DNA of 51,021 bases, from the IMG/VR virus record IMGVR_UViG_3300031857_018292, positions 1-51,021 of that record. The stretch is one strand, 5' to 3'. A program made the translations under genes and the position numbers. Shown in pieces: positions 3,206 to 37,980 of this stretch. Every line of letters starts with the position of its first letter. The stretch's first letter is position 1. The notes under the pieces are model-generated. The model was not told the DNA's origin, ran no database searches, and saw only the letters and a list, made by a program, of their open reading frames with translations. Source of the DNA: a virus.

Positions 3206-3210
3206 TGCAG

Positions 3211-3283
3211 TACCCCGTATCGGATTCGAACCGACGATTTCTTCCGTGAGAGGGAAGCGTCATAACCGCTAGACCAACGGGGC
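3211..3283 (-). tRNA. tRNA-Glu (anticodon CTC)
   Basis: A 73-base cloverleaf reads on the - strand. The acceptor is GCCCCGT with ACGGGGT, and the anticodon stem CTTCC/GGAAG encloses a loop with CTC. The variable loop has 5 bases, and the T arm is GTCGG-TTCGAAT-CCGAT. The discriminator is A and no CCA is encoded. It begins one base after the TGA stop of the upstream gene and ends six bases before the DUF6065 start, so it must be cut from a protein-coding transcript. Confidence 0.93.
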
Positions 3284-4532: not shown

Positions 4533-4721
4533 CTAGCTAATACTACCCTTACCAGCCCATCCTCCGCCACGAAAGATGATAGATGTCTTGCCAAAAAACT
4601 TTCTAGCCTCGTTATTGCAGGTAGGACAAGGGGCAGTTTTTGGAGCTTCTCCAAAAGAATATTGAAGCTCTATAAGTTTGTTGCAGGTATCGCATCTGTA
4701 CTCGTAAGTAATCAATGCCAA
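4533..4721 (-). CDS. FmdB-family zinc ribbon protein
   Basis: A 62-residue protein. YEYRCDTCNKLIELQYSFGEAPKTAPCPTCN is split here into its two halves: C-x2-C at about residue 9 and C-x2-C at about residue 32. FFGKTSIIFRGGGWAGKG follows. This is the FmdB/regulatory zinc ribbon family found throughout bacteria and frequent in actinophages. Function is uncertain; a regulatory role is usually assumed. The start overlaps the WhiB stop by 10 bases. Confidence 0.85.
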   Translation of the reverse strand: MALITYEYRCDTCNKLIELQYSFGEAPKTAPCPTCNNEARKFFGKTSIIFRGGGWAGKGSIS

Positions 4722-5035
4722 GCCCTCCCACTTCTCTTTAGAATAATGCGTCGCTGCTCTTCAGTCAACCCTCCCCAGACGCCATAGATCTCTGGGACCT
4801 TGAGAGCATGCTCTCTACATTGCTGAATAACGGGGCAAGTATTGCATATAGCAACGGCTGCTAGTTCTTTCTTACGCTTTGAAGTTCCTCGTTGATTATG
4901 CTCAAGATAGAAATCTTCAACACTAGAATCTCTACAAGCACCCTCATATTGCCATTCCCATAACTCATGAAGTGGTTCAAGGTTTAAGCTATAGCTTCTA
5001 TCTAACCTAGGAATTTTTTCAGCGCCCACTTCCAT
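4712..5035 (-). CDS. whiB: WhiB-family iron-sulfur transcription factor
   Basis: A 107-residue protein with the four WhiB cysteines: C34 in YEGACRD, then CNTCPVIQQC at about residues 64-73. The GVWGGLTEEQRR motif follows and the C-terminus is basic. WhiB proteins bind a [4Fe-4S] cluster and act with sigma factor region 4 on promoters. They are confined to Actinobacteria and their phages, so this gene strongly marks the host. The phage copy could redirect host sigma factor or respond to redox state; both are inference. It overlaps the cobalamin adenosyltransferase gene by 17 bases. Confidence 0.93.
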   Translation of the reverse strand: MEVGAEKIPRLDRSYSLNLEPLHELWEWQYEGACRDSSVEDFYLEHNQRGTSKRKKELAAVAICNTCPVIQQCREHALKVPEIYGVWGGLTEEQRRIILKRSGRAWH

Positions 5036-5594
5036 CTCCTGGAACCCAAAGCTGGTCGCCCTTGTCTCTGTTCTCGTATCGAGCTAGCACGAATAAAAGA
5101 TCTGAAAGTCTGTTTAAATACTTTGCAGTCAAGACATTCACTCCTTCTCCAAAACTATTAATAGCGTTCCAAGTTCTTCTCTCTGCACGACGCACGATAG
5201 TTCGTGCTACATGAAGATGAGCCGAAGCTGCAGAGCCAGAAGGTAGCACAAATGAGCGTAAAGATGGTAAATCTTTATTATAAAAATCTATTTGAGTTTC
5301 TAAGTAATCTATCTGCTCTTGTGTAATACGAAGTGGTTTTATATTTGGGTTATCTATAACTGGAGTACATAGATCAGCTCCAACATCAAATAAATCATTT
5401 TGAATAGATACAAGCAAAGACTTAATTTCAAAGTTAGTTACATGTAAAAGAGCTACTCCGATATAAGAGTTTGCTTCATCGACAGTTGCGAATGCTTCAA
5501 GTCTTGGATCATTCTTGGAAGTTCTGCTCATGTCTCCTAGAGCTGTCGTTCCATCATCGCCCGTCTTTGTGTAGATACGACTTAAATGAACCAT
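5019..5594 (-). CDS. Cob(I)alamin adenosyltransferase, PduO type
   Basis: A 191-residue enzyme transferring the adenosyl group of ATP to cob(I)alamin to make adenosylcobalamin. The N-terminal ATP loop YTKTGDDGTTALGD (residues 8-21), VDEANSYIG, and LPSGSAASAHLHVARTIVRRAERR followed by NRLSDLLFVLAR are the conserved PduO/MMAB blocks. Its length is normal for the family. It is three genes from an adenosylcobalamin-dependent ribonucleotide reductase on the same strand, so its likely job is to supply that enzyme's cofactor. The start overlaps a 43-residue membrane gene (TAATG). Confidence 0.94.
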   Translation of the reverse strand: MVHLSRIYTKTGDDGTTALGDMSRTSKNDPRLEAFATVDEANSYIGVALLHVTNFEIKSLLVSIQNDLFDVGADLCTPVIDNPNIKPLRITQEQIDYLETQIDFYNKDLPSLRSFVLPSGSAASAHLHVARTIVRRAERRTWNAINSFGEGVNVLTAKYLNRLSDLLFVLARYENRDKGDQLWVPGDGSGR

Positions 5595-5725
5595 TAATGT
5601 CCTGTCATTGATCGCCAGATATCTATGCTGACTCTGTTTGCTATGTACATTGTAAAGAGAGTTAACCCTATTTGAAGGAAAATATCAATAGACACTCTGC
5701 TCTTTTCTTTTGTGTCTAAGGCCAT
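5594..5725 (-). CDS. Small single-span membrane protein
   Basis: A 43-residue frame beginning MALDTKEKSR. It has one hydrophobic segment, IDIFLQIGLTLFTMYIANRV, and ends IWRSMTGH. The ATG at 5725 overlaps the end of the DUF4430 gene by 10 bases, and its TAA overlaps the adenosyltransferase ATG as TAATG. The tight fit on both sides argues that it is real. It lies inside the B12-related gene set and may anchor or assist the secreted DUF4430 protein, which is speculation. Confidence 0.65.
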   Translation of the reverse strand: MALDTKEKSRVSIDIFLQIGLTLFTMYIANRVSIDIWRSMTGH

Positions 5726-6168
5726 CGTAGATCTCCATTGGTAGAAAAGACTAATCCTAAACTATCACCAGGTAAAACAATGGTTTCGTTTATACCTTTT
5801 TGAGCCCATCCCCAGTCATTAAGAAACGGTACTAGTTGGTTTTTCTTTACGATCACTGCCCAGAAAGCGTTCTCTGGTGGCATTACATCGCAAGACTCTA
5901 CAGATTTACTTGGAAGATTATTAACTCTGCAGACAACAGCATCTCCATACTTCTGAGTACCTTCTACTTCAAAACCAGCTTGTTTAACAAGTTCTAAAGC
6001 GTTTGTAGGTCCAGATGCTTTAATGCACTTTTCAACTTTAGTTGAGTTATCTAATGAACCAAAGTCAACATAAAAATTAACGCATGACTCATTATTGTTT
6101 TGAACAACATGAAAGCCACCAGCAAAAACTAGAAAAGCGATAATGGAAAGAGATAACTCTTTTTTCAT
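5716..6168 (-). CDS. Secreted/anchored DUF4430 (transcobalamin C-terminal-like) protein
   Basis: A 150-residue protein from the ATG at 6168. Residues 4-20 form an N-terminal membrane or signal segment (LSLSIIAFLVFAGGFHV). The rest fits the DUF4430/transcobalamin-like C-terminal fold: NALELVKQAG, then a strand pair, then ENAFWAVIVKKNQ, then WAQKGINETIVLPGDSLGLVF, which is the usual GD-containing final strand. An upstream in-frame ATG would add 16 residues, but the TAATG overlap with the reductase stop and AAAGGA upstream favour 6168. Placement between a B12-dependent reductase and an adenosyltransferase suggests cobalamin capture. Family assignment is by pattern only. Confidence 0.6.
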   Translation of the reverse strand: MKKELSLSIIAFLVFAGGFHVVQNNNESCVNFYVDFGSLDNSTKVEKCIKASGPTNALELVKQAGFEVEGTQKYGDAVVCRVNNLPSKSVESCDVMPPENAFWAVIVKKNQLVPFLNDWGWAQKGINETIVLPGDSLGLVFSTNGDLRWP

Positions 6169-8213
6169 TATGCATTTTCCTTTATTAGTTTCACCTCGCA
6201 TGCATCTGTTGTGCAATAGGCTTCGCCAATAGCATCTGCTGCAAGACCAGCATAGACTCCAGAGAAGTCGATTGGGAATAGTTTCATTGTATATTCCTCG
6301 TACTCTTCCTTAGTTATTTGCGTGTATGGCATCTGAGGATATGTAAAGTTTCCTGAAGGTAGGAAAGATACAGTCTTAAGCTGGCCATCATGCATATGTA
6401 GAACAGTTCCGATGTGCTGCTTCTCTGTCTCTGGATCAAATGAAACTGTGACAGATACAGAGTTGTCAGACCAGTAGCGCTGAGCTGTTACTGCTAACGC
6501 CATCTTTTCAAAAATAGTTACATCTTTCTCTGCTCGCTCTGCATCAGACTTGATTGGGAAGAAAACAACTGAAGTTGTATCTGGAGACTCTGATGCTGGC
6601 TCAATTCTGTATTGAGCAAGTTTGAAGAGTGGAAGCATTGGATCTGCATTCGAGAAACGAATTGCACGATTGAAATACTTTCCACCTGGTGTCCAGTGAA
6701 CTCCTGGTGACTCACCTGCAAGAATGGAAACGGTTCCAGAAGGTTTAACGGTTGTGGTCTTGATTGACTCACGAATACCTAGCCACTCTGAATAAACTGT
6801 GTCGTAACTCTTTACAACTGCGTAACCTTGGTTCATCCACTCTTTAAGAATTGGAAGACCAGTGGTATCTGCAAAGTTTGCAACACCAGAGATTGATGTT
6901 CCAATTCTGCGATTACGCTGCATGATTGCGTTGGTCTCTTCCCAGTGGGTTGGAAGAAGCGTTACAGTCTTAGCATAGAGATAAGCAAACTTGAGAGTAC
7001 GCTTGAAATCTTCTAAAGAATCGTGACGATTTAGATAAGTCTCTACAAGAGTACACATTTCATATGACTCAAGGGATTGTTCAGCGCAAGGGTTGTAACC
7101 CATGATGCGATGGTCTTTGTTATTAGGTGGATCGATAAGGCGACCATACTTGCGTGATAGGTCTAGCCAAACAACTCCTGGTTCACCATTGAGTGCAATA
7201 CCATCAACAATCTTTGATAAATCTTGACCTACCTCAGCTGAGACAGAGTTGTTAGACATCCAACCCCAACCGGGTGCTTGTGGGTCATAAGAATTGCGCT
7301 CTGGAAAAACTTCAGGGTTTTTTAAATTTAAAAACTTATCATCATCAAGACGACCAATAAGAAGTTCAGCGCTACGACGAACATTGCCACTAACGACGCA
7401 TACGCCAATAAGATTGCCGATATCAGCAATATCAACACGAGTGAGTTTTTCATTTTCTCTCCCATCAAAAATCTTTCTGATGTAATCATGGAGTTTGATT
7501 AACGGATCTGGACCTGCAGCTGTTCCACCAAAAATTCTGATAGGTGCACCTGCTGGACGAATAAGAGAGTAATCAAAATCTAACTCTGCTTGCTCTGGCT
7601 TCAAATAAGAATCAATAAGTGCTGCAGTTGATTCAACCCAGCCTTCACGAGAATCTTCAATAACAATTGTTTTAATGTTATTTGCAATTGGCTTGTAAAT
7701 TGTGAAATCTTTATCTGCACCTTGATCATCAAAACCAACGCCAACACCAAGCATTGATGCTTCCATAAGAAATGCAAATGGACGAGATGGATCCATCTTT
7801 GTCATTTCACGAGTTGAAACGAAAGCGCAGTTTTGTAGTGCTGCTGAATTCTTTTGTTCATTAACTAGTGGAGTTCCCATAACCCAAAGTCCTCGTCCTG
7901 GAGGAGTCCACTTCAATTCGAAAAGGCGCTGAAATGCTTCTTTTGCAGATGCTTGACCTCGAGCATCATTCCAAGGCAAACGGTTAGTTTTGCAATGATC
8001 TTTTTGAATTGAATACATACCATTGATAACGCGCTCGCAAACATCTACCCAAGTCTCTTTGGTTCCATCTTCTTTTTTACGAGAGTATGTGCGTAAGAAT
8101 GTAATTTCTCCTACTGAATTACCTGCTGCATCTCTATAGCCAAAAGGTGCTTGTTTACTGCGAAAAGTAGAAACAAAGTCTTCTGAAAGCTTAAATGAGA
8201 ATGCGACAGACAT
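6168..8213 (-). CDS. nrdJ: Adenosylcobalamin-dependent ribonucleoside-triphosphate reductase, class II monomeric
   Basis: A 681-residue enzyme reducing ribonucleoside triphosphates to deoxy forms with coenzyme B12 as radical source. Visible signatures are GNVRRSAELLIG (near residue 280), NPCAEQSLESYEMCTLVETY, holding the active-site Cys and Glu, and TVKPSGTVSILAGESPGVHW, a substrate phosphate loop. The C-terminus has CTTDACEVK, the shuttle Cys pair. The length and single-chain layout match the Lactobacillus leichmannii RTPR type. An ACGAGGAG ribosome site precedes the ATG. It leads the B12 gene set (DUF4430, membrane peptide, adenosyltransferase) and shares the strand with dCMP deaminase. Confidence 0.95.
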   Translation of the reverse strand: MSVAFSFKLSEDFVSTFRSKQAPFGYRDAAGNSVGEITFLRTYSRKKEDGTKETWVDVCERVINGMYSIQKDHCKTNRLPWNDARGQASAKEAFQRLFELKWTPPGRGLWVMGTPLVNEQKNSAALQNCAFVSTREMTKMDPSRPFAFLMEASMLGVGVGFDDQGADKDFTIYKPIANNIKTIVIEDSREGWVESTAALIDSYLKPEQAELDFDYSLIRPAGAPIRIFGGTAAGPDPLIKLHDYIRKIFDGRENEKLTRVDIADIGNLIGVCVVSGNVRRSAELLIGRLDDDKFLNLKNPEVFPERNSYDPQAPGWGWMSNNSVSAEVGQDLSKIVDGIALNGEPGVVWLDLSRKYGRLIDPPNNKDHRIMGYNPCAEQSLESYEMCTLVETYLNRHDSLEDFKRTLKFAYLYAKTVTLLPTHWEETNAIMQRNRRIGTSISGVANFADTTGLPILKEWMNQGYAVVKSYDTVYSEWLGIRESIKTTTVKPSGTVSILAGESPGVHWTPGGKYFNRAIRFSNADPMLPLFKLAQYRIEPASESPDTTSVVFFPIKSDAERAEKDVTIFEKMALAVTAQRYWSDNSVSVTVSFDPETEKQHIGTVLHMHDGQLKTVSFLPSGNFTYPQMPYTQITKEEYEEYTMKLFPIDFSGVYAGLAADAIGEAYCTTDACEVKLIKENA

Positions 8214-17907: not shown

Positions 17908-18960
17908 ATGGATTTGGAAACTAAATCAAAACTCACTTCCATAAGTGGAAGTTTTTGGAAAATCGTAAATGAGTGCCTTATTCAGGGTGTTGATGATGAG
18001 GTTAGACTTAGACTTGGCGCAGAGGTAAAGCCAAGTGGTCGTTGCGTTGAGAGAGCGAGTGGTGATGAAAGAAAAGCACGAACCAGCGCACCTACTCCTA
18101 GTGGTGTAGAAGTGGCGAATATGGAAGCAGATGAGTTCTATGTTCGTCCTAATGGACAAAAGTATTTCACTCGTTCATGGGGTATCCACACAGATACAGC
18201 AGTTCTAAGAAAAGCAAGAGAAGCAACTAACAACTTCTTTTCTAGTGGAGTTGGTTCGCCACAGTTCGCTTACTTCTATGGAGTTCCCGGAACAGGAAAA
18301 ACTGCTTTGGTAGAAGCAAGTTTCCATGACGACAAAGTTATTACTTTGGTAGGTAATGGTGATACTGATACCAATGATTTTTATGGTTCGTTTATCCAAA
18401 CCCCTAGTGGAAAGTTTGAGTGGGTAGATGGTGGATTTATTGAGGCAGTAGAAAATGGTTATGTATTTTTTATTGACGAGATAGGTCTTATTGACCCTAA
18501 AGCGTTGGCAATAGTTTATGCCGTCATGGACGGACGAAAGAGTATTACTATTCCAATGAACCCTGATAGAGGAACTATCAAAGTCCATGAAAACTTTTAT
18601 GTAGTTTCAGCGACTAATCCAAACGCTCCCGGAGTTAGACTTTCCGAAGCCATGCTTTCTCGCTTCCAACTACAAGTGGAACTAACAACTGATTATGCGC
18701 TCGCAAAGAAGTTAGGTGTTCCAGCGACAATGGTGAGCGTTGCTCAAAATCTTTACAAGCGCACACAAGGCGATAGTGCTGAAATCTCATGGTCGCCACA
18801 AATGCGTGAGTTGATAGGTTTCAGAGATACTTCCGATATTTTCGGAACAGAGTTCGCTATTGCTAACTTGATAGCAAGTGCGCCTGAACTAGATAGAGAT
18901 GTTGTGGTTGATGTTATCTCTAGGGCGTATGGCGCAGAATATAAACCTGCCAAGATTTAG
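17908..18960 (+). CDS. MoxR/CbbQ-type AAA+ ATPase
   Basis: A 350-residue protein. Walker A is GVPGTGKTA near residue 130, Walker B is VFFIDEIGL near residue 188, and sensor 1 is VVSATNPNAPG near residue 230, followed by MLSRFQLQVEL. This is the AAA_5/MoxR branch, which acts as a chaperone that remodels or inserts cofactors into target proteins together with a VWA-domain partner. That partner is encoded directly downstream. The N-terminal 80 residues are not conserved-looking. In phage the target is unknown. Confidence 0.88.
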   Translation: MDLETKSKLTSISGSFWKIVNECLIQGVDDEVRLRLGAEVKPSGRCVERASGDERKARTSAPTPSGVEVANMEADEFYVRPNGQKYFTRSWGIHTDTAVLRKAREATNNFFSSGVGSPQFAYFYGVPGTGKTALVEASFHDDKVITLVGNGDTDTNDFYGSFIQTPSGKFEWVDGGFIEAVENGYVFFIDEIGLIDPKALAIVYAVMDGRKSITIPMNPDRGTIKVHENFYVVSATNPNAPGVRLSEAMLSRFQLQVELTTDYALAKKLGVPATMVSVAQNLYKRTQGDSAEISWSPQMRELIGFRDTSDIFGTEFAIANLIASAPELDRDVVVDVISRAYGAEYKPAKI

Positions 18961-19088: not shown

Positions 19089-20873
19089 ATGGCTCATATA
19101 AAGCATAAGGAAGCCACTAACTCAAAGGTGAAAACACCTAGCGAGTGGCTAGGCGTTGGTTATGAAATCACGCAGTTAGTAAATAAGTGGTCTGATAGAA
19201 CAGACCTAGTTGCGCTAATAAATCAAGAAGCAGGACAAGGCGCACCTGCTTGCTATATTCCAGCGTTCGCAGAAGTGGAAGTAAATAGCAAAGAAGCGTT
19301 TGGGGAAATAACAACTCCTAATCAAGTCAATGATTTGACTAAGAGAGCGAACCAATACGAGTGGGCTAAAGCCACAGGTGCTATTCGCCATGAGGCATAC
19401 CACGCAAAGTTTTCTGCTTGGGATATGCCAAGCGCAAGTAAGGCTCTCAAAGATGATGAGTATTCTGCTTTGGTCTTACTAGAGGAAGGTCGCATAGAAG
19501 CGTGGGGTATCAAGACCCACCCTGACGCAAAAGTTTTTCTACGAGCAAGTGCTATGGGTTTGATTATTGACGAAGCAAAAGAAGTATTTGGAAAAGAAAC
19601 TTCCAGCGTTGCTAGTGCTAGTTCGCTAGTTGGTCTATGCCACGCAAGAGTTATCGCAGGTTCGCTTGATGAGGACGAAGCACTAGACCTAATCGCAGAA
19701 GTAGAAAAAGTATTAGGTAAAGAGTTAGTAGATAAGTTGGAAGCGATTATCAAAGAGTTTCAGGCACACTCTAATCACACAGATATTTCTGCTTGCTATC
19801 CATTAGCAAAAGAGTGGGCGAAGTTAGTTCGTGAAAAGAAAGAGGAAATGGGTGAAAGCGAAGGTGGTTGCGAGTTCCCTACTTTCGTAGAGATTATGAA
19901 AGAGATGTTAGGGGAAATGGAAAAGCAAGTTCCTATTTCCAATGAAAGAGATTTACAAGACCAAAAGCGTTCAGAGGATATGAAAGAGAGCGCAACTGCT
20001 AAAGAGCAGACTTCTAAAGAGCAAAAGAAAAATGAGGAAATCGCTAAGGAAGTATTTTCTAAATCAACAGGTCCCGGAGAGAGCGCAACTCGTTCTCGCC
20101 TAACAGAGAAAAGACCCCCTAATGGCGCAGAGCGTAATAGCGCAGTAAAAATCGCTAGGGCTTTGGAAAGAGCAAAGTATCGTGAGCGTGGTCTTACAGA
20201 AAAGGGAAGTGTAGTTCCCCCCGGAAAACTAAACACACGAAAGATTATTGAGGCTAAAGCGTTAGAGCAAAGAGGCGTATTTACTCAACCAACTGCTTTC
20301 ACAAAGAAAGTTCGTAAGCACACAGACGAGCCACCACTAACAGTTGGAGTAATGGTTGATATTTCAGGTTCTATGGGAAGTGCCATGAACCCAATGGCTT
20401 CTACTGCTTGGATTATGAGTGAGGCAGTTCGCCGAGTTCAGGGAAATGTCGCTATGGTTTATTACGGAAGTGATGTGTTCCCAACTCTCAAAAGAGGGCA
20501 ACGACTAAAAGAAGTAAATGTTTATTCTGCCCCTGACGGAACTGAAAAGTTTGATAAGGCGTTTCGTGCTTTGGACGGCGCACTCCACTTGATTTATGGA
20601 CAGGGCGCACGACTTCTCGTAGTTGTGTCGGACGGACAATACACACCACAAGAAACAGAAAGCGCAAAGTCATGGATAAAGACCTGCTCTAAAAACGGCG
20701 TAGCAGTTCTATGGTTGCCTATCGGCTCTCACGATTACTACGCAAAAGATATTTGCGAGGGTGCTAACGCAGAAATCGTTGTCGGCATAACTGACCCAAC
20801 AAGTTCGGCGTTGGCTATCGGAAAGTGCGCCGAGAGAGTTCTCTCAACGGCAGGAAAGAGGTTGAGCGCATAA
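19089..20873 (+). CDS. VWA-domain protein, CobT-like, MoxR partner
   Basis: A 594-residue protein. The C-terminal VWA domain has the MIDAS motif VDISGSMGS near residue 424, the later conserved Thr/Ala region (FDKAFRALDGAL) and LLVVVSDGQYTP. The middle is charged and low-complexity (KEQTSKEQKKNEE), as in the cobaltochelatase CobT and other MoxR-associated VWA proteins. HEAYHAKFSAWD near residue 100 resembles an HExxH-like patch but lacks the canonical spacing. It pairs with the upstream AAA+ ATPase. Target unknown. Confidence 0.85.
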   Translation: MAHIKHKEATNSKVKTPSEWLGVGYEITQLVNKWSDRTDLVALINQEAGQGAPACYIPAFAEVEVNSKEAFGEITTPNQVNDLTKRANQYEWAKATGAIRHEAYHAKFSAWDMPSASKALKDDEYSALVLLEEGRIEAWGIKTHPDAKVFLRASAMGLIIDEAKEVFGKETSSVASASSLVGLCHARVIAGSLDEDEALDLIAEVEKVLGKELVDKLEAIIKEFQAHSNHTDISACYPLAKEWAKLVREKKEEMGESEGGCEFPTFVEIMKEMLGEMEKQVPISNERDLQDQKRSEDMKESATAKEQTSKEQKKNEEIAKEVFSKSTGPGESATRSRLTEKRPPNGAERNSAVKIARALERAKYRERGLTEKGSVVPPGKLNTRKIIEAKALEQRGVFTQPTAFTKKVRKHTDEPPLTVGVMVDISGSMGSAMNPMASTAWIMSEAVRRVQGNVAMVYYGSDVFPTLKRGQRLKEVNVYSAPDGTEKFDKAFRALDGALHLIYGQGARLLVVVSDGQYTPQETESAKSWIKTCSKNGVAVLWLPIGSHDYYAKDICEGANAEIVVGITDPTSSALAIGKCAERVLSTAGKRLSA

Positions 20874-28879: not shown

Positions 28880-29449
28880 GTGACCACAATAGCTGCAATA
28901 CAAGGTGAAGGTTGGGCTGTTGTTGGCTATGAGTCTAGGGTTTGTGAAGAAGATGGCCGGGCTTATACCTTGCCAAAAGATAATGGAAAAATAATAAAGA
29001 ATGGTTCATATCTTTTAGGTGCGGCCGGGGATATGAGAGCAATAAATATTTTGGCTCATGTATTCAAGCCACCGATTTGTAGTCCTTCAACAAGAGGCGT
29101 GAAGTTAGATAAGTTTATGACTACACACTTTATCCCGGATCTAAAAAAGTGTTTTGAGGAAAACTCTTATTCAAAAGATGGTGAGCAAGATTCTCAAATA
29201 ATGGTTTTGGTCAATGGAACTATCTATGAAATAGGCGAGGACTATTCTTGGTGTCATGATGAAATGGGAGTGTATGCCGTTGGTTCAGGTGCGCCGTATG
29301 CTTTAGGTGCGCTCAATGCGCTCGCAGATGGAAAGAAAAGAACTCTTACAAATGCTAGAAGTAGTTTGAAGTTAGCGCTCGCCGTATCTTGTAAGTTTGA
29401 TAAGCAGTCAGGCGAACCTATCTATTTACAGACCCAGTACGCCGAATAG
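28880..29449 (+). CDS. HslV/proteasome beta-like Ntn-hydrolase
   Basis: A 189-residue protein opening MTTIAAIQGEGWAVVGYESR. As in HslV, removal of Met1 would leave Thr as the N-terminal nucleophile. E18 stands where the family has Asp17, K37 in NGKII fits the catalytic Lys, and YLLGAAGD supplies the conserved G-x-x-G turn. YAVGSGAPYALGAL near residue 135 is the second hallmark. Its length is close to HslV (about 175). It probably hydrolyses peptides as a ring, but no ATPase partner is adjacent. Actinobacterial hosts have their own proteasome, so it may act with or against host proteolysis. Confidence 0.8.
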   Translation: MTTIAAIQGEGWAVVGYESRVCEEDGRAYTLPKDNGKIIKNGSYLLGAAGDMRAINILAHVFKPPICSPSTRGVKLDKFMTTHFIPDLKKCFEENSYSKDGEQDSQIMVLVNGTIYEIGEDYSWCHDEMGVYAVGSGAPYALGALNALADGKKRTLTNARSSLKLALAVSCKFDKQSGEPIYLQTQYAE

Positions 29450-32279: not shown

Positions 32280-32903
32280 ATGAACTATTCTCCAAAGCAA
32301 AAAGCGGAGAACCTGCTGGCTATCATATCTATGATGATAGTGTTCAGTTCAGGTGCGGTTGCTTTAGCAGTAGAGAAAGAACAAGAGGTTGTCGCAACAG
32401 AGCAAGTGGCAACTAGAAACATATCAGCGCTTCAGGCGCTCGCAGGAGAAAAGAAGGAAGTCGAGAAGAAGCCAAAGCTTCGTCCACTTTCTTACTTTGA
32501 AAACAAGACAAGTCTTACCGATAAAGAGTTGGTAGAACTTTTGCAGGTTGTTGGCTTTACAGGTCAAGAACTGAAGGAAGCATGGGCTATCGCCAAGAAA
32601 GAAAGTAATGGCAGACCTTTGGCTTTCAATGGCAATAAACTAACTGGAGACAACTCATACGGAATCTTCCAAATCAACATGATAAATACTTTGGGAGAAG
32701 ACCGAAGAGAGAAGTTTGACCTAGACCATAATGCCGACCTATTCAACCCCGTGACTAATGTGGAGATTGCTTTCCATATGAGCAATGGTGGAGAGAACTG
32801 GAGCTCATGGCATATAGGCAAAGACGCTTATACTAGTACTAGTGGAAAGCACTTCGCTAAGTTCAAAGAATGGCTGGCTAAGTTTCCCGGAGAGGTAAAG
32901 TAA
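32280..32903 (+). CDS. Endolysin-type lytic transglycosylase
   Basis: A 207-residue protein. Residues 12-32 form a signal or anchor segment (LLAIISMMIVFSSGAVALAV). The catalytic domain has AWAIAKKESNGRPLAFNG near residue 100, where the Glu of KES is the SLT catalytic residue, then GDNSYGIFQINMI, the SLT GLMQ-like motif. It cleaves peptidoglycan glycan strands. It lacks its own cell-wall binding domain, but the next gene encodes one. AAAGGAAAAA precedes the ATG. The stop overlaps the next ATG. Confidence 0.82.
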   Translation: MNYSPKQKAENLLAIISMMIVFSSGAVALAVEKEQEVVATEQVATRNISALQALAGEKKEVEKKPKLRPLSYFENKTSLTDKELVELLQVVGFTGQELKEAWAIAKKESNGRPLAFNGNKLTGDNSYGIFQINMINTLGEDRREKFDLDHNADLFNPVTNVEIAFHMSNGGENWSSWHIGKDAYTSTSGKHFAKFKEWLAKFPGEVK

Positions 32904-33319
32904 TGAGCGAGCAAGAAGAGTTGAAACCTATGCTTGGTTCACTAGAGCCAGTAGTTGCTAGCCCTGCCCCAGTTGCAGAGCCAGTAGTTATGGTGAAGGA
33001 AGAGCCAAAGAAGGAAGAGCCAAAGAAAGAAAGCAAAGCCCCGAAGTTGAACACCGAAGGCGACAAGATCGTTTTCATGTCTGCTTTGAAGGTTGGTGCT
33101 TATGAAGGTAACTCCGAAAGTGTAAAGACAGTTCAACTCCGTTTAGTTGAACTTGGCTTCGATACTTGCATGAACGACAAGTTTGGTCGTTTGGGAAGTG
33201 GAGCAGTAGAAGCGATAAACGCTTACAGAAAATCAAAAGGTCTTTTAGAGAATGGCGCTTTTGATGAAGAAGTCTTGGCACATTTATTTGCTGGCACTAA
33301 TGTAGGTGTCAAGCACTAA
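32903..33319 (+). CDS. Peptidoglycan-binding domain protein
   Basis: A 138-residue protein. The N-terminal half is a Pro/Glu/Lys-rich linker (VKEEPKKEEPKKESK). The C-terminal half, VKTVQLRLVELGF...DKFGRLGSGAVEAINAYRKS, is a PG_binding_1 domain (three-helix cell-wall binder). It has no catalytic motif. It overlaps the transglycosylase stop (TAATG), so the pair probably works as a split endolysin. No signal peptide is visible. Confidence 0.82.
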   Translation: MSEQEELKPMLGSLEPVVASPAPVAEPVVMVKEEPKKEEPKKESKAPKLNTEGDKIVFMSALKVGAYEGNSESVKTVQLRLVELGFDTCMNDKFGRLGSGAVEAINAYRKSKGLLENGAFDEEVLAHLFAGTNVGVKH

Positions 33320-36243: not shown

Positions 36244-37980
36244 ATGGGTATCTTTACAAACGATAATCCTGAACAGTCATCTCCTCAACCTCCAAAGTCT
36301 TCACGCAAAAGAACTAAATCAACTTTTTCTCGTTCTACACAAATAGTTCAAGCCCCAGCAACTACATCTTCAATAATTTCTGTCTTTAGTAACAATGCAA
36401 AAGCTGTCCCTTACTCTGCACCTAGATCTCTTACAGCTGCAGCAGCTCAAATTAAAATTAATGACAAGGGAGAGTTCGAGCAATTTAGAATTCGTCGTGC
36501 TGCTGGTTCTAGCGCATGGCAAGCAGAGGCTTGGGAGTATTACGACGCAATTGGCGAAATCAAATACGCTTTTAATTTAGTTGCATCTGTTGTTTCACGC
36601 ATTCGTATTTACGCAGCTGCAATTGATGATCCATCAGAGCAACCAACATCTGTAAGAAATTCAAGCATTGTTGATCAAAGACTTGCTAATGCAGCTGAGC
36701 GTGCTCTCGGTAGGCTAAACTCAGCATATGGTGGACAAGCAGGACTTCTTAAAGATGCAGCACTCAATTTGGCTGTTGCAGGAGAATGCTACTTGGTTCA
36801 AATGCCAGCTCGTCCAGGAGCTAACCTTCCTGAGTCTTGGGACATTCGCTCTGTTGATGAAGTAACTGCAGATGTTCGTGGCGGATTTAATGTTATTGGC
36901 CGTCGTGAACAATCAACATCTTCACAAGGCGCAACTGCAAATACAAAATTAGGTAAGAATGCATTTATTGGACGCATCTGGCGTTCACATCCAAGATTTT
37001 CGGATGAAGCAGATTCATCGCTAAGAGGTTTGCTTGATCTTTGCGCCGAACTACTTCTACTGAATAGGACATTCCGTGCTACTGCTCGCTCTCGCCTCAA
37101 TGCTGGTGCTCTTTATCTTCCAGATGGTCTTTCGGTTGCGTCGCAAGGCGATCCAGACTACCCCTACGATTCTGAAGATGGTATCGGCGCAGGGTTTACT
37201 GCTGAAGAAGCAGAGGACGAATTCGAAGAACAATTAATGGATGCGATGACGACTCCAATCAGAGATGAAGAGTCAGCATCAGCAGTTGTCCCATTGATTA
37301 TTCGTGGTCCAGCAGAGCTTGGTGACAAAATCAAGCAATTTAAGTTTGAGCGTTCGTTCGATCCTGCATTAGCTCAGCGTGCAGACCGTGTACTAGAAAG
37401 AATCCTTCAGGGACTTGATGTTCCAAAGGATGTGGTTACTGGTCTTGCTAATGTCAAGTACTCGAACGCTCTTCAAATTGATGAATCTTTATACAAAGCA
37501 CACATCGAACCACTTATGTTGCTTATTGCAGATGCGCTAACTGTTGTTTATCTTCGCCCATACCTTCTTGCAACAGGTTTTGAAGAGTCACAAGTTAACA
37601 AGATTGTTGTTTGGTATGACCCATCAGCAATTGCAACTCGCAATGACCGTGCAGCAGATGCAGACGCTGGTTATGACCGCATGGCTGTCTCTGCAGACTC
37701 ATGGCGTCGTGCTCATGGCTTCTCAGATCAAGATGCACCAACTCCTACAGAAGTTGCAGTACGACTTCTACAAGAGAAGGGCGCAATCACTCCAGAATTT
37801 ACAGAGGCAATGCTTGGAGCTATCGCACCTGATGTAATTAATCAGATTCGTGGTGCACAGCAAGCAGCTTCCGTTGCTCCACTACCTCCAGAGGTAGAAC
37901 AAGCACTTCAGCAAGCAGCTCAAGGAGCTGAGGCAGCAGGTATAGCTGCAGAAGCACCAGCAGAGGAGGCTCAGCAGTAA
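36244..37980 (+). CDS. Portal protein
   Basis: A 578-residue protein forming the dodecameric DNA channel of the capsid vertex. It has the length and order of actinophage portals: a Ser/Lys-rich N-terminus, WEYYDAIGEIKYAFNLVASV near residue 100, a GECYLVQ strand, a FRATARSRLNAGALYLPDG segment, an acidic loop (EEAEDEFEEQLMDAM), then GLDVPKDVVTGLANVKYSNA with a helical C-terminus rich in Ala/Gln. No catalytic motif, as expected. It precedes two proteins in the order portal, Cys-rich DUF5824-like, giant polyvalent. Confidence 0.85.
   Translation: MGIFTNDNPEQSSPQPPKSSRKRTKSTFSRSTQIVQAPATTSSIISVFSNNAKAVPYSAPRSLTAAAAQIKINDKGEFEQFRIRRAAGSSAWQAEAWEYYDAIGEIKYAFNLVASVVSRIRIYAAAIDDPSEQPTSVRNSSIVDQRLANAAERALGRLNSAYGGQAGLLKDAALNLAVAGECYLVQMPARPGANLPESWDIRSVDEVTADVRGGFNVIGRREQSTSSQGATANTKLGKNAFIGRIWRSHPRFSDEADSSLRGLLDLCAELLLLNRTFRATARSRLNAGALYLPDGLSVASQGDPDYPYDSEDGIGAGFTAEEAEDEFEEQLMDAMTTPIRDEESASAVVPLIIRGPAELGDKIKQFKFERSFDPALAQRADRVLERILQGLDVPKDVVTGLANVKYSNALQIDESLYKAHIEPLMLLIADALTVVYLRPYLLATGFEESQVNKIVVWYDPSAIATRNDRAADADAGYDRMAVSADSWRRAHGFSDQDAPTPTEVAVRLLQEKGAITPEFTEAMLGAIAPDVINQIRGAQQAASVAPLPPEVEQALQQAAQGAEAAGIAAEAPAEEAQQ

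Follow-up and report, generated by a model that had tools for sequence, protein, structure and literature searches.

A proteasome-like (BPH/HslV-like) Ntn-hydrolase gene in a phage whose very likely hosts, freshwater Nanopelagicales, mostly lack other members of the family

As summarized in Table 1, the window analyzed herein, a 51,021-nucleotide stretch representing positions 1 to 51,021 of the IMG/VR virus record IMGVR_UViG_3300031857_018292 (GC content, 42.6%), carries an open reading frame for a protein of 189 residues, which exactly fills the interval listed and begins with a GTG codon immediately preceded by the purine-rich ribosome-binding site 'aaggaaaaagaa'. The differences between this gene and its closest relatives were distributed over codon positions 1/2/3 as 11/3/37 (L004) and 12/3/47 (L005), and synonymous codon changes exceeded non-synonymous ones (30 versus 13 and 37 versus 17, respectively). 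This third-position excess indicates that the gene is a genuine coding sequence under purifying selection.

The gene lies in a run of short open reading frames of unknown function, and a transglycosylase-like and a peptidoglycan-binding open reading frame are found further downstream. A virion maturation protease was rejected as its identity, since lysis genes and a distance of 6.8 kb separate the peptidase gene from the start of the portal gene, and it is thus outside the structural module. Beside the portal gene, a giant polyvalent protein of 3704 residues combines DEDD exonuclease, SF1/UvrD helicase, ArdC-N anti-restriction and MPTase-PolyVal metallopeptidase domains. Elsewhere, the window encodes a tRNA-Glu (CTC). 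It also has genes for a cobalamin adenosyltransferase and a B12-dependent ribonucleotide reductase of class II, a pairing that may give the phage a B12 cofactor supply of its own. In the DSL-LC01-like branch and its sisters, all ten loci (L022 and L044-L052) have whiB directly 3' of the peptidase gene and on the same strand. In the branch of the window, it is not adjacent but 24 kb distant, so that whiB was rejected as a conserved neighbor explaining the window locus. In two other loci, L039 (10846-11727) and L040, the gene directly 3' of the proteasome-like one encodes a protein that looks secreted and has a subtilase-like motif (IAVIDSGVN); this protein gave no Pfam match at 1e-3.

Table 1. 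Positions of the window features considered in this study.
Feature	Position	Strand	Evidence or remark
tRNA-Glu (CTC) gene	3210-3283	-	
WhiB-family regulator, host indicator	4712-5035	-	PF02467 1.2e-20
Class II ribonucleotide reductase and cobalamin adenosyltransferase	5019-8213	-	B12-dependent
CobS/MoxR-type AAA_5 ATPase	17908-18960	+	PF07728 2e-14, phrog_16448 2e-51, phrog_249 2e-21
Conserved 594-aa ORF after the AAA_5 ATPase	19089-20873	+	No Pfam/PHROG match
Proteasome-like (BPH/HslV-like) Ntn-hydrolase gene	28880-29449	+	189 aa, no propeptide; phrog_1040 E 5e-21, profile, AF2, Foldseek
Thr2 codon, predicted nucleophile (Thr1 of the mature enzyme once Met is removed)	28883-28885	+	Invariant in 29 viral homologues
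Glu18 codon (GAG), position of proteasome Asp17	28931-28933	+	Asp in all compared relatives
Lys37 codon, candidate catalytic base (proteasome Lys33)	28988-28990	+	Invariant in aligned viral and bacterial homologues
Acidic loop, residues 95-105, second helix to next strand (BPH 'pore loop' position)	29162-29194	+	Model, alignments, PMC5777263
G135-S136-G137 turn (proteasome Gly-Ser129-Gly; HslV GSG)	29282-29290	+	G135 and G137 invariant
D174-x-x-S177 (proteasome Asp166/Ser169 equivalents; BPH 'FDKSS')	29399-29410	+	Alignments
Transglycosylase-like ORF, downstream of the peptidase gene	32280-32903		
Peptidoglycan-binding ORF	32903-33319		
Portal	36244-37980		
Polyvalent protein, 3704 aa	39314-50428	+	

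Several features of the window pointed to its host. The whiB family occurs only in Actinobacteria and their phages (PMC10611076, PMC10202952), and the cobalamin adenosyltransferase of the window was 81% identical to that of a freshwater actinobacterial MAG, with Nanopelagicaceae/Planktophila proteins among the next matches. The closest annotated phage was DSL-LC01 (OQ999401), a predicted actinophage of lake origin with a complete genome of 129 kb. Its portal is 72% identical to that of the window and its 'ATP-dependent protease subunit HslV' 48% identical to the window protein, both phages reading as freshwater actinophages, but the DSL-LC01 homologue differs in having a C-terminal basic tail and whiB directly downstream. 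Furthermore, F5 and E7, the first phages cultured on 'Ca. Planktophila' LanE-43 (PMC10202952), encode a relative of the window protein (31-36%). Taken together, whiB, the adenosyltransferase, DSL-LC01 and the F5/E7 relatives make a host among the 'Ca. Nanopelagicales', which are abundant in freshwater, very likely.

An earlier note on this DNA had proposed an HslV-like Ntn-hydrolase from the letters alone, and its assignment to the proteasome/HslV superfamily was borne out. Over practically its full length (residues 1-181), the protein matched the PHROG family phrog_1040, 'peptidase HslV family' (E 5.2e-21), and phmmer matched it to the bacterial proteasome homologue BPH (5ovu) at 6.6e-6; a profile of 29 viral homologues matched BPH (4e-9), HslV (1e-7) and the 20S beta subunit (about 1e-6). 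The Pfam Proteasome model missed the window protein (13.4 bits, cut-off 22.4) and matched 20 of the 29 close viral homologues at E ≤ 0.01. The AlphaFold (AF2) model (pLDDT 92.4, pTM 0.88) exhibited the two beta-sheets and the helices H1-H4 of the proteasome beta fold, including H1 (H52-60) and H2 (H73-94), and a Foldseek search with this model returned BPH as the best match (E 1e-13, TM 0.77), followed by HslV and 20S beta; many proteins with a proteasome-like fold were also found among predicted viral structures. The window protein is thus almost certainly a member of the proteasome-like Ntn-hydrolase superfamily.

HslV as the precise family, on the other hand, was not sustained. The scores against the curated HslV models were 17-18 bits (17.9 versus 137 bits for NF003964 and 17.3 versus 157.75 for TIGR03692), the predicted structure was BPH-like, HslU was missing, and the stretch aligned to the basic pore cluster of HslV, Arg86/Arg89/Lys90 (PMC5777263), is acidic (SYSKDGEQDSQ). 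The window protein and HslV (ClpQ) nevertheless share the fold, the N-terminal TTI and the GSG-PYAL turn; HslU is encoded in neither the phage nor its likely host. Fuchs, Alva and Lupas (2021; PMC8665760) described the phage proteasome homologues PPH, AAH and CPH, for which they found no co-occurring AAA+ partners, and the window protein belongs among these phage proteasome-like proteins. Like them and PHROG 1040, it is phage-encoded and has a compact group-I proteasome fold, no propeptide and no co-occurring AAA+ that could be found; their active site consists of Thr1/Asp17/Lys33, and the window protein likewise has Thr2 and Lys37 but Glu18 at the Asp17 position. PPH itself, having about 140 residues and lacking helix H2 (PMC8665760), was rejected for a protein of 189 residues with H2. 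The same study reports no AAH from actinophages, whereas homologues of the window protein do occur in them. Bacterial relatives on plasmids of Rhizobium, Sinorhizobium, Paraburkholderia and Streptomyces (25-34%) fell on a different branch and are devoid of the D-x-x-S motif, so that the presumed AAH-type proteins (Rhizobium, Streptomyces) lack the Asp166/Ser169 equivalents, both of which the window protein keeps. A first profile scan of genome contigs with the viral homologue alignment returned zero bacterial relatives, and the homologue clade therefore looks viral. In the tree, the phage and related bacterial/plasmid proteins were placed apart from BPH and HslV, each represented by one sequence, but the branches were long, and this tree, which joins Tunturi_5 with BPH and HslV, was left out of the fine placement.

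By anatomy, as far as the model indicates, the window protein appears most similar to BPH (Cupriavidus/Thiobacillus; PDB 5ovs, 5ovt and 5ovu), which was its best match in the PDB by sequence as well as by structure. Common to both are an acidic loop after H2, a D-x-x-S motif near the C-terminus ('FDKSS' in BPH versus 'FDKQS' in the window) and the lack of a known unfoldase. The two proteins differ in that they share only about 20% identity and that the window protein is viral, has a shorter and less acidic loop and is known here from its sequence and a monomer model. BPH forms a heptameric double ring with a long acidic pore loop, has no partner unfoldase and binds epoxomicin at Thr1, and the recombinant enzyme showed no activity toward casein or the usual test peptides (PMC5777263).

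The residues named earlier (M1-T2-T3, K37 and Y132-A-V-G135-S136-G137) were all present. Throughout the 29 viral homologues, T2, S19, K37, G50, G135, G137 and D174 were invariant, and position 177, the Ser169 equivalent, was Ser or Thr. By position, T2, K37 and D174 match proteasome Thr1, Lys33 and Asp166, and the G-S-G turn holds the Ser129 equivalent. As for homologues without the N-terminal Thr, which the earlier note had regarded as evidence against its reading, Thr2 was found in every one of the 29 viral sequences, and the distant phage and plasmid homologues kept Thr2, Asp18 and Lys37, with Ser replacing Thr2 in Tenacibaculum phage pT24. Moorella phage MTATph1 (L147, 2986-3558) is only an apparent exception: its HslV-family gene has been annotated with too late a start, which leaves the catalytic Thr outside the annotated protein, and initiation at a TTG codon further upstream gives M-T-C-I. 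Asp18, corresponding to proteasome Asp17, was common to every compared relative, and Glu was observed in the window protein alone (codon 18 being GAC in three close relatives checked versus GAG in the window). A search of other IMG/VR records for the window-like stretch around codon 18, a very specific pattern, gave zero matches of any kind. Glu18 may represent either a genuine substitution or a single-base sequencing or assembly error (GAC to GAG), and in place of the conserved Asp it may lower the activity. The window protein is probably an active Thr hydrolase.

With respect to an ATPase partner, the earlier note had seen none nearby. This held for HslU, ARC and any other AAA_2 unfoldase in the window, and no AAA_2 unfoldase was detected in 10 related records, one of them being the complete genome of DSL-LC01, nor ARC in the two phage records examined. 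It did not hold for ATPases at large, in that the window has a CobS/MoxR-type AAA_5 ATPase about 10 kb off, of a kind other than HslU/ClpX/ARC. Related AAA_5 ATPases are encoded by DSL-LC01, L019 and most large relatives. In many relatives, the AAA_5 gene is paired, as in the window, with the conserved 594-aa open reading frame, annotated as 'cobalamin biosynthesis protein' in DSL-LC01.

The suggestion that the phage may borrow a host ATPase such as HslU or ARC was disfavored by the host genomes. HslU was above the cut-off in none of 151 Nanopelagicaceae genomes and a proteasome-family protein was missing in 146; many of these are incomplete assemblies, and the agreement across the 151 is strong. 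ARC/Mpa was present in the five proteasome-bearing genomes only and absent from all seven proteasome-less genomes examined. In LanE-43 (G022), the cultured host of F5 and E7, proteasome-fold proteins, HslU and ARC were all absent. Since the hosts lack HslU and mostly lack the proteasome, these genomes make the borrowing of HslU or ARC unlikely in most of them, and since other members of the family are mostly missing as well, the peptidase probably works without an ATP-driven partner.

The computed fold, family placement, conserved catalytic residues and lack of HslU/ARC-type partners in the relatives and likely hosts can be set beside a working model, in which catalytic activity, ring assembly, ATP independence and biological role are what we infer. 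Methionine aminopeptidase of the host would take off Met1 and expose Thr2 as the nucleophile, which would be activated by Lys37 and the acidic residue at position 18. The subunits would self-assemble and stack as a closed BPH-like double ring, the chamber of which would admit peptides and such chains as are unfolded or held in a loose fold, and nothing else; with such a limited chamber, no dedicated AAA+ unfoldase would be needed. During host takeover, the ring could clear or recycle peptides as well as unstructured proteins of host or phage origin, the degradation of host proteins being a reasonable guess. BPH may serve as a precedent for a ring without a partner, being a double ring that is reactive to epoxomicin yet inert on generic substrates; owing to this inertness, a missing activator is possible. 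Likewise, because the window is a 51-kb fragment, an unfoldase partner could lie elsewhere in the genome of this phage. As a whole, a propeptide-less, unfoldase-independent N-terminal-Thr peptidase ring of a Nanopelagicales phage appeared to us an even call.

Other explanations were weighed against this model. That the peptidase cooperates with a host AAA+ unfoldase (HslU, ARC/Mpa, ClpX/ClpC or FtsH) seems rather improbable: the hosts do have ClpX-like and FtsH-like AAA+ proteins, seen as sub-cut-off matches in frames of about 430-460 and 650-690 residues, but the genome survey described above speaks against HslU and ARC, and the acidic loop stands where HslV has its basic pore cluster. ClpX and ClpC dock on ClpP and not on proteasome-fold rings, which counts against either of them as the partner. 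Feeding of substrates by the AAA_5 ATPase of the phage itself together with the neighboring 594-aa protein, to which the recurrence of this ATPase in the large relatives lends some weight, is very improbable, considering that its gene lies about 10 kb from the peptidase gene and does not share an operon with it, that the CobS-like group (phrog_249) is common in phages, that a peptidase homologue occurs without any AAA/AAA_5 match in Arthrobacter phage Pitbull, the 41-kb genome of which is complete, and that F5 and E7 have only a protein that reads by sequence as a RecA/DnaB-like ATPase.

The enzyme could instead be a specific processing enzyme or ligase of the connectase type, or a maturation protease acting, for example, on the giant polyvalent protein. 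Connectase demonstrates that a protein of the proteasome fold can act as a monomer and with high specificity (PMC8665760), the inertness of BPH on generic substrates fits such a specificity, and a giant polyvalent protein would plausibly need processing. This explanation is nonetheless improbable, because connectase lacks H1 and H2, both present in our model, and has a two-helix insertion (PMC8665760), because the peptidase gene is unlinked to the structural module, and because the giant protein has its own MPTase-PolyVal metallopeptidase. Catalytic weakness or death of the window allele through Glu18, or an assembly error at this base, is quite improbable: the Glu is a singleton where every other compared homologue has Asp, but it keeps the charge, no other active-site residue is altered, purifying selection acts on the gene, and the single-base difference itself could stem from sequencing or assembly. 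An unfoldase-independent peptidase ring remained our preferred reading.

To our knowledge, no phage proteasome homologue has a known function. Phage proteases of the proteasome/HslV family are already catalogued, HslV without HslU having been noted in a Salmonella jumbo phage (PMC7823757) and BPH in a Citromicrobium phage (PMC8953757), and the window gene adds one member. Its added and less expected value is the pairing of a phage with hosts mostly devoid of the whole protease family. It is conceivable, though doubtful, that an actinophage clade with an unfoldase-independent proteasome homologue provides hosts, themselves deprived of both the proteasome and HslUV by loss, with a Thr-peptidase ring, and that in the sister phages this gene has become fixed beside the WhiB regulator; if true, the adjacency would tie phage proteolysis to the control of host transcription. 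F5 and E7, with a homologue and a sequenced host devoid of proteasome, HslV and HslU, constitute a clean system: whatever activity of the proteasome type appears upon infection must be phage-derived, which makes the role of such enzymes without an ATPase directly answerable.
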